DNA of 64,000 nucleotides from contig JBDTAC010000001.1 of the NCBI GenBank assembly GCA_039924845.1, positions 1 to 64,000 on the forward strand, in the 5' to 3' direction. The translations under genes and the position numbers were made by a program. Each line of letters opens with the position of its first letter. Within the stretch, counting starts at the first letter, position 1. Under the pieces are notes generated by a model that was not told the origin of the DNA, did not search any database, and saw nothing but the letters and a program-made list of their open reading frames with translations. The stretch is from Bacteroidia bacterium (lineage in GTDB: Bacteria; Bacteroidota; Bacteroidia; DATLTG01). This document shows, piece by piece, positions 1-63,357 of this stretch.

Positions 1-609
<609 letters not shown>

Positions 610-811
610 TAAGTTTGATTTTTTCCATTAAAGGAAATGTCTCGGATTTGTTTCTCATCGGAATCTCGAATATGAATTCGAGAAACGAGGGATATTTACT
701 ATTTCTTTGGCTTCTTCAATACTTCAAAGAACTTTACTTCTTTATATTTTAATTCCCACTTTCAGGAACCAATTTCATTCGTATTCAATTTGCCTTTTTT
801 AAAAGGGAGTG

Positions 812-60971: not shown

Positions 60972-61040
60972 TCTTTTTTGTCTGCGACACAGTTTGGCTG
61001 AGTTGCCAAGTATTTTTGTAATTGAATATTAAAAATAGTG

Positions 61041-61469
61041 ATGAAAAATTTGTACGAATTATTGGAGATTGTATATAAGACTCAGATCAACTTTGTTAAT
61101 GTATTTGAAGATAACAAAATTTATATTTTTTGCTCAAAATCATTTTACGATTATTTTGGAGAAGTGCCTGATGCGGTTGAATTACGAGGTGTTGATTTTA
61201 AAAAAGCGAAACAATGGATAGAAAAAGAATTAGCAGATCAAATCCATAAAAAAAAAACAAGAGAAGTACTTAATTTGAATATCGGGAAACGAGATAATTT
61301 AAGTGTTTTGTTTGTAATGAAAAACAAGATGTTAATAGAGATTCAAAATGATGAAATGCAGCTATTTTATGTGCAGAAAAATCATGCAAAAATTAGAGAA
61401 CTGATTGATAAAATGATTCCTGAAATAAGGGCAACAAAAAAAATAACCGAGAAGCCGAAAACGGAATAG
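61041..61469 (+). CDS. Hypothetical protein, 142 aa
   Basis: ATG 61041 preferred over GTG 61038. A mixed alpha/beta protein (NFVNVFEDNKIYIFCSKSFY, LIDKMIPEIRATKK) with no signal peptide and no family I can name. It lies 27 bases before the zinc-knuckle gene and in the same direction. Confidence 0.55.
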   Translation: MKNLYELLEIVYKTQINFVNVFEDNKIYIFCSKSFYDYFGEVPDAVELRGVDFKKAKQWIEKELADQIHKKKTREVLNLNIGKRDNLSVLFVMKNKMLIEIQNDEMQLFYVQKNHAKIRELIDKMIPEIRATKKITEKPKTE

Positions 61470-61496
61470 AGTAGGCAAAAAATAAAATTCAAAATA

Positions 61497-61751
61497 ATGG
61501 CACAAAATTTTTATTGCGAACACTGTGGAAGTAAAGCTCCCAGCGTTGCAGGTTTAACTGGCGGTTTTTGTTCCCGTCATCCAAATGGGGCTAACAAAGG
61601 GAAACATTCGCTGTATCAAGGAAGCGAAAAATCGCATTACACGTGTAAATATTGCGGAACAAATGCTTCCAGTATTGCGGGTTTAACAGGAGGTTTTTGT
61701 GTTCGTCATCCAAGCGGAGCAAACAAAGGACATCACTCTCCAGCTTTATGA
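61497..61751 (+). CDS. Double zinc-knuckle protein, 84 aa
   Basis: Two near-identical 43-residue units. Each has CxxC (Cys7/Cys10; Cys50/Cys53), then 14 residues on a Cys and His (Cys25/His28; Cys68/His71), and the shared string AGLTGGFCxRHPxGANKG. Cys3-His would bind one zinc per unit. It resembles a zinc-ribbon nucleic-acid-binding module, but I know no named family. Its TGA overlaps the ATG of the exonuclease gene (ATGA), so the two are probably made together. Confidence 0.7.
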   Translation: MAQNFYCEHCGSKAPSVAGLTGGFCSRHPNGANKGKHSLYQGSEKSHYTCKYCGTNASSIAGLTGGFCVRHPSGANKGHHSPAL

Positions 61752-62245
61752 TGAACGATACATTTACAGCCATTGATTTTGAAACCGCGCAAGGCAAGCG
61801 TTGGAGCATTTGTCAAATAGGTTTGGTGCGTGTGGAAAATGGAATTATTAAAAACAAAATTTCTATTTTGGTTCAACCGCCAACAAATTATTATTGGGAT
61901 AGGTTTATTGATATTCACGGAATAACGCCCGAACAAACGGCAAATGCGCCAACCTTCGATAAAATTTGGGAACAAGTAAAACCATTTATCGAAAACCAAC
62001 ACGTAGTTGCTCACAATGGTTTTGCTTTTGATTTCCATTGCTTGAAACAAACCTTAGCTTATTATGACTTGGCTGAACCGAAGTTTAAGGGACATTGCAC
62101 GTACCGAATTTTCGGAAATAATTTGGCTGACTTATGTGAAAAGTATAAAATTCCTTTGAATCATCACGATGCTTTAAGCGATGCAATGGCTTGTGCGAAA
62201 CTTTTTAAATTACATCTTGAAGAGGATTGTGTCGGATTAAAATAA
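61748..62245 (+). CDS. DEDDh 3'-5' exonuclease
   Basis: A 165-residue (or 164 from the second ATG at 61751) exonuclease of the DnaQ/ExoX type. Counting from the second ATG, metal ligands are Asp9 and Glu11 (AIDFETA), Asp94 (HNGFAFDFH) and the His139-x4-Asp144 motif (NHHDALSD). It would trim DNA or RNA from the 3' end. Four-base overlap with the zinc-knuckle gene. The upstream in-frame extension lies within that gene and is not used. Confidence 0.88.
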   Translation: MMNDTFTAIDFETAQGKRWSICQIGLVRVENGIIKNKISILVQPPTNYYWDRFIDIHGITPEQTANAPTFDKIWEQVKPFIENQHVVAHNGFAFDFHCLKQTLAYYDLAEPKFKGHCTYRIFGNNLADLCEKYKIPLNHHDALSDAMACAKLFKLHLEEDCVGLK

Positions 62246-62775: not shown

Positions 62776-63357
62776 TTGGACACCATTCATATAAATTTCT
62801 TTGGCATTGCTTGTCGTGTTATTAAAGGGAAATTTAATGAGCGAACGTGGGAAAAATTTAAAACAGGAGCTAACAAAATAGGCATTAATTTGGAAGAAGT
62901 TATTTTTGAAAAATATTTTTTTGAAACCCTGAAAATTCCTAAGCTTAATACTTGGTCCGATTTGGGAAACCAATTAAACAGTTACGGTTTAATGGATTGT
63001 TACCAAAGCAGCATCGAAATACGAATTAACAACAGACAAAAAAGAAAACTTTTTTTGGCAGACATTTCTAACGAGCAACTTCTTTTTCCGCTTTACGAAA
63101 CAAGCATTTCGGTAATTGATATTTCTGCCTTTAAAGCGGGCAGTTTAATAGCGATAGAAAAAGAAATTGGAACCATTGCCAGTTATAAATTTGAAACCGA
63201 TAACTTTTCGCTTAACCAATTACAATTTACACTTCAGTCCATTATTATTCACAAAAATTTAAAGATTCAGCTTTTAGCAAAACTTGCCTATAAAGGAGTG
63301 GAATTAATAAGCAAAAAGCAGGACACCTTGGTTAAGGAACGCTTTGTTTTGATGTAG
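62776..63357 (+). CDS. Hypothetical protein, 193 aa, probable TTG start
   Basis: No ATG lies near the 5' end: the frame opens after TAA at 62770 and the first plausible start is TTG 62776 (MDTIHINFFGIACRV). Mixed alpha/beta, no signal peptide, ends KERFVLM. Not recognised. A loose AT palindrome (about 62896-62920) reads EKYFFET. It probably forms a unit with the next two small genes. Confidence 0.5.
   Translation: MDTIHINFFGIACRVIKGKFNERTWEKFKTGANKIGINLEEVIFEKYFFETLKIPKLNTWSDLGNQLNSYGLMDCYQSSIEIRINNRQKRKLFLADISNEQLLFPLYETSISVIDISAFKAGSLIAIEKEIGTIASYKFETDNFSLNQLQFTLQSIIIHKNLKIQLLAKLAYKGVELISKKQDTLVKERFVLM

Follow-up and report, generated by a model that had tools for sequence, protein, structure and literature searches.

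In the Panacea (PanA) hyperpromiscuous antitoxins, one small conserved protein occurs with many unrelated partner genes, and an architecture of one sensor with many effectors is already known in bacterial immunity. The ToxIN type III toxin-antitoxin systems consist of a tandem-repeat element, a terminator-like hairpin and then a nuclease, the antitoxin being an RNA. The GmrSD/SspE-like type IV restriction proteins (DUF262, DUF1524) are defence enzymes, and PDC-S26, a PDDEXK_4 nuclease, is listed in PADLOC as a single-gene candidate.

The gene described here, ZN, encodes a small protein with two predicted zinc fingers and lies just upstream of a DEDDh exonuclease gene in the window, the whole 64,000-nucleotide stretch of DNA that was analysed (Table 1). 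ZN has many unrelated partner genes, as PanA does, but differs from it in having two matched zinc units, no match to the Panacea domain and a sequence that varies beside a constant partner. The ToxIN order of tandem-repeat element, terminator-like hairpin and nuclease is also found in part of the ZN loci, although ZN is a conserved protein and not an RNA. GmrSD/SspE-like genes are frequently found downstream of ZN, but not in the window itself, and to our knowledge the published descriptions of GmrSD and Ssp systems do not include ZN. PDC-S26 lies directly downstream of ZN at four loci (L043, L005, L006 and L009), while its PADLOC entry does not include ZN. The window exonuclease belongs to the same superfamily as the CRISPR-associated DEDDh exonuclease of PADLOC (PDLC01247, 2.3e-26); that model is generic, whereas the window enzyme shares an operon with ZN, a protein corresponding to the AAA+ N-domain, and WYL.

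Table 1. Features of the ZN locus and of a second small repeat family. Positions refer to the window unless a locus is named.
Feature	Position	Strand	Evidence or remark
142-aa protein with homology to the AAA+ ATPase N-terminal domain of related operons	61041..61469	+	
DUF805b cis-regulatory RNA (RF02914)	61445..61477	+	cmscan 38.2 bits, gathering cut-off 35.6
ZN, predicted double zinc-finger protein, 84 aa	61497..61751	+	ORF translation; AlphaFold2 pLDDT 83.6
ZN unit 1, residues 6-37	61512..61607	+	alignments of ZN relatives
ZN unit 2, residues 49-80	61641..61736	+	variable residues matched to unit 1
DEDDh 3'-5' exonuclease	61748..62245	+	Pfam RNase_T (PF00929) 5.2e-22; operon-specific clade
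193-aa protein, candidate member, same island	62776..63357	+	
PD-(D/E)XK-like protein, 319 aa	63582..64000	+	continues beyond the window; full length in L056
Second small family, three repeats	L088:5517-5816	-	
Second small family, three repeats	L102:5321-5623	-	
Second small family, three repeats	L104:61-384 (reverse complement)		

The ZN protein and its two units

The ZN protein (MAQNFYCEHCG...HHSPAL) is built of two units that share 22 of their 32 residues, as counted from the sequence. The two-unit organization and the ATGA overlap with the exonuclease gene, both reported in a preliminary description of this locus, were present as described in the sequence and its ORFs: the ZN stop codon TGA (61749-61751) overlaps the exonuclease ATG at 61748, and a second ATG is found at 61751. 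The same description had labelled the units zinc knuckles, a name that does not apply. Zinc knuckles are CCHC motifs (C-x2-C-x4-H-x4-C), whereas each ZN unit has the pattern C-x2-C-x14-C, followed by x2-H and another conserved His, and no match to zf-CCHC was obtained at E<=1.

Cys7, Cys10, Cys25, His37, Cys50, Cys53 and Cys68 are invariant across the aligned ZN relatives, and the linker LYEGSEK is conserved. In the alignments, the His of the 'CxRHP' motif has been lost from several members (L025, L026, L042, L048 and L050), while the final His of each unit is almost always retained (Cys in L020), suggesting that the fourth zinc ligand of each unit is probably this last His (His37 and His80) and not the 'CxRHP' His. 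We infer from this pattern that each unit binds zinc through a C-C-C-H set.

No family in Pfam, NCBIfam, PHROGs or PADLOC covers ZN, the zinc-ribbon matches being weak, partial and below cut-offs. The AlphaFold2 model is of fair quality, but a Foldseek search of it against the PDB gave no match at E<1, and the ZN sequence gave only borderline matches to C2H2 fingers in the PDB (best E 0.005).

The DUF805b leader RNA

The DUF805b element, the sole match to this RNA in the window by cmscan, ends 19 nt upstream of the start of ZN, and it overlaps the stop codon that closes the 142-aa ORF. A DUF805b-type motif also precedes ZN in L023, L024, L027, L044, L048, L052, L140 and L141, and the GSL/GSW-type genes described below in L088, L102 and L104; the leaders of L044, L088 and L104, like that of the window, scored above the Rfam cut-off. 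The motif was further found in 45 viral contigs (L144-L188), mostly 20-27 nt before the starts of varied, unrelated genes, indicating a leader of general use, not one restricted to ZN. In the viral contigs it often precedes a conserved protein of ~98 aa (MSALINVSLRVDKLPKEKF). Upstream of the leader, window positions 60984-60998 read GCGACACAGTTTGGC, almost identical to a stretch (ACGACACAGTTTGGC) of the leader that precedes ZN in the L027 cassette, a likeness that is possibly a trace of a shared mobile leader.

The exonuclease and its operon

The assignment of the downstream gene as a DEDDh exonuclease proved sound, with an RNase_T score above the cut-off and intact DxE, D and Hx4D motifs in the alignment. 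A tree built from 25 exonucleases placed the window enzyme within a clade of seven members (the window, L044, L048, L026, L043, L088 and L089; support 99/94). All seven have a WYL gene in the operon, and in six the same AAA+ family, represented in the window by its N-domain, lies beside ZN or the exonuclease; plasmid L026 carries a different AAA protein, further downstream. ZN is present in five of the seven operons, adjacent to the exonuclease in the window, L044, L048 and L026, where the junction is an ATGA overlap or a gap of 0-3 bp, and not adjacent in L043. In L088 a GSL-repeat protein replaces ZN, and in L089 ZN is absent. Relatives at 50-59% that fall outside the clade are located at ordinary chromosomal places. 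The L088 exonuclease (genome G590) has an in-frame stop and is probably inactive.

The five exonucleases of G146's family closest to that of the window (63-75% identity) belong to genomes G513, G540, G590, G584 and G146. ZN was found in three of these five genomes versus 8 of 247 in the family (Fisher p = 2e-4). The pairing of ZN with the exonuclease is therefore not due to chance, and it recurs outside the window. The coupling proposed in the preliminary description thus holds as a neighbourhood that recurs in independent lineages (the window; L044 and L048, from two species of one genus; the Chryseobacterium plasmid L026; and, as an operon, L043), but an exclusive two-protein complex is unsupported, given that 53 of the 57 ZN loci lack an exonuclease gene next to ZN and that ZN often lies directly upstream of unrelated genes.

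In a comparison with six AAA+ proteins, the 142-aa ORF upstream of ZN matched their N-terminal domain (blastp 4e-7 with L043 and 3e-6 with L089; profile 48.6 bits), and the ATPase domain is absent from the window protein. Downstream, the 193-aa protein belongs to no family in Pfam, NCBIfam, PHROGs or PADLOC, and the 319-aa protein was assigned as PD-(D/E)XK-like from its RPDFYFKIKEKEFIIENK motif only, with no Pfam match. Beyond the window, the contig continues with genes for cREC and WYL proteins (Pfam). Because the 142-aa ORF corresponds to the AAA+ N-domain and the contig continues with the PD-(D/E)XK-like, cREC and WYL genes, the window holds a reduced version of a recurring operon composed of AAA+, ZN, exonuclease, further genes and WYL. 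No GmrSD gene was found in the window or in L056. A partial 16S rRNA gene is located at window positions 1-610 (-).

PADLOC gave no match for ZN, the AAA+ protein or the PD-(D/E)XK-like protein and only generic or partial matches for the exonuclease and WYL, and none of its system models matched ZN or the gene set. The earlier remark that no described system with this pair is known agrees with the lack of a curated PADLOC defence model for it, and no description of the gene set of the operon was found in the literature searched.

Distribution and gene neighbourhoods of ZN

ZN is not a chance ORF: it has full-length relatives, mostly of 83-84 aa, in Bacteroidota, Brachyspira, Treponema, Lachnospiraceae and Deferribacterota. 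The first genome search yielded 21 loci, above all in Brachyspira and also in Parabacteroides, Bacteroides, Treponema and a Lachnospiraceae MAG, and ZN was found on six plasmids (Myroides, Hymenobacter, Calditerrivibrio and Chryseobacterium); later searches added further genomes. The gene is uncommon, being present in 7 of 396 genomes of a phylum sample, 8 of 247 of one family and 16 of 250 of one genus. It was not found in the phage records searched and was found at one locus in viral contigs. Comparison of 57 ZN loci showed shared ancestry among them, above all in Brachyspira, and 57 is therefore not a count of independent events.

An exonuclease gene adjoins ZN at four of these 57 loci, which rules out a strict partnership of the two. 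At 33 of the 57 the next gene is on the same strand within 80 bp, and these genes come from unrelated families. GmrSD follows ZN in L004, L023, L024, L027, L050, L052, L140 and L141, and is near it in L015 and L026; PDDEXK_4 follows it in L003, L005, L006, L009, L013 and L043, the gap to the PDC-S26 gene being 11 bp in L043 and 12-13 bp in L005, L006 and L009. Both pairings were found in Bacteroidota as well as in Brachyspira. Genes without assigned function also follow ZN at some loci. Several partners match candidate or known defence families of PADLOC (PDC-S26, HEC-06 and Orf5/SspE), while the neighbours at many other loci, including the kinase-linked Flavobacterium loci and several of Brachyspira, carry no defence annotation. 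Terminator-like hairpins separate ZN from the gene behind it in several unrelated lineages (L003, L004, L016, L023, L027, L046, L052, L140 and L141).

In Flavobacterium and related loci, ZN is located downstream of a two-component kinase gene, with varied genes close behind. ZN after a beta-propeller histidine kinase gene was observed in L045, L046, L049, L051, L053, L054, L126, L129, L130, L133, L135, L137 and L138; in several of these it is directly downstream, and varied small genes follow.

Variation of ZN in GmrSD cassettes

In the four loci of a single cassette type that were compared (L023, L027, L140 and L141), the GmrSD proteins are 97.5-98.8% identical (dN 0.006-0.010, dS 0.23-0.41), whereas the ZN proteins are only 67-92% identical (dN 0.08-0.35, dS 0.5-1.2). 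Since the dS of ZN is raised too, recombination or allele swapping contributes to its divergence. In these loci the leader, ZN and GmrSD form a block of ~2.2 kb that moves as a unit and resembles an integron cassette, with complementary ends (GTTACCTGCTRTGTT and AACACAGCAGGTAAC) and long hairpins, although its core sites are non-canonical for attC. The ZN differences may thus include swaps. Ends and hairpins of this type were not seen at the ZN-exonuclease pair of the window. Whether by divergence or by swaps, the effector does not dictate the variable residues of ZN.

Matched variable residues and other repeat proteins

At eight variable finger sites, which were picked after viewing the first set of 21 ZN proteins, units 1 and 2 of the same protein agreed at a frequency of 0.63 versus 0.22-0.25 between proteins (29 proteins), a value reached in 0 of 20,000 permutations. 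With all 16 varying sites of the first set of 21, agreement was 0.65 within and 0.44 between proteins. Codons were alike at 74 of 146 variable sites with identical amino acids, versus 50.1 (sd 5.3) expected from codon usage. Recent gene conversion as the only cause of the matching was rejected, as codons differ at half of these sites; the excess of codon identity indicates that the matching is in part due to gene conversion of older date or to duplication of the unit.

A second family of small proteins, unrelated to ZN, contains three repeats (GSLIEVYD, GSWYYTYD and KNKMYYTRD). These proteins are encoded upstream of GmrSD or of a PDDEXK-like protein, or in the place of ZN in the exonuclease operon, and by eye the three repeats agree within each protein and differ between proteins (L088, L102 and L104). 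In genomes G442 and G590 a GSL/GSW-type protein occupies the place of ZN before the same GmrSD family (76-84% identical). A 77-aa protein with two DDAGxSW-like repeats was also observed beside the WYL gene of the Chryseobacterium plasmid island (L106:2843-3076, -), and may represent a third kind of such proteins.

Discussion

The matching of the ZN units at their variable residues and the fast divergence of ZN beside GmrSD suggest a recognition role. The reading we favour, tentatively and on sequence comparisons, is that ZN may be a small protein of recognition or control that evolves fast and belongs to modular, mobile loci, often of the defence type; this reading best fits a small protein of constant frame with matched sites, promiscuous effectors, nearby regulators and mobile loci. 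Two zinc-stabilized fingers with the same variable residues would contact a repeated or symmetric target, which could be a phage-made or nucleic-acid ligand, and binding would license or direct the effector encoded alongside. This effector would be the pair of DEDDh exonuclease and AAA+ N-domain protein in the window, and GmrSD, PDDEXK_4 nucleases or other proteins elsewhere. A defence role is suggested by gene neighbourhoods. Weighing on the other side are the raised dS of ZN, the excess of identical codons between its units, the four-locus basis of the speed comparison, the many neighbours that carry no defence annotation, and a fold for which the PDB gave no confident match.

Its small size and its position just upstream of varied effectors could also make ZN a promiscuous antitoxin-like inhibitor that, like Panacea, restrains varied toxic effectors and is made in excess; the hairpins after ZN in several unrelated loci would indeed yield more ZN than effector. 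However, an inhibitor fitted to its target should not diverge as broadly as ZN does next to a GmrSD that hardly changes; moreover, a small protein of another family can stand in for ZN, and the exonuclease clade is also found without it, so we regard inhibition as unlikely. The occurrence of same-clade exonucleases without ZN in L088 and L089, together with the scarcity of adjacent exonucleases among the ZN loci, weighs against the dedicated complex of the preliminary description, in which ZN would give the exonuclease its nucleic-acid specificity. The tight junctions at four loci, the operon-specific exonuclease clade and the weak similarity of ZN to C2H2 fingers speak for such a complex, which we nevertheless consider quite improbable.

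A further explanation is that ZN is a mobile, hitch-hiking gene, with a promoter and leader of its own, that is functionally unconnected with the genes behind it. Its DUF805b leader, the hairpins behind it at some loci, the cassette-like mobility with structured borders and its highly varied neighbours are all consistent with this, but close spacing to the next gene at most loci and the re-pairing of ZN with GmrSD and PDDEXK_4 in phyla as distant as Bacteroidota and Brachyspira make it a doubtful one. Least probable, in our judgement, is that ZN, as a small DNA-binding protein, regulates the operon in which it lies: its zinc fingers and the nearby WYL and two-component regulators would suit that role, but these operons already hold regulators, and ZN is often located inside the operon behind another gene (the window, L044 and L048).

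ZN could further belong to a class of small, exchangeable recognition proteins of a 'matched-repeat' kind, comprising the double zinc fingers, the GSW-type proteins with three repeats and perhaps others, that diversify fast, stay alike between repeats at the variable residues and plug into common effectors (GmrSD, PDDEXK_4 and the exonuclease operon). Such a class, which would amount to an undescribed form of sensor-swapping immunity, is a speculative extension to which we give rather low confidence. No description of the ZN family or of its matched-repeat feature was found in the literature and libraries searched, which is not proof of absence.

Should the recognition role be true, an unnamed protein family would contribute specificity to many defence loci, and GmrSD cassettes that are almost identical but carry different ZN proteins would represent a ready natural experiment on what ZN recognizes. 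The orphan DUF805b leader RNA would likewise gain a context.
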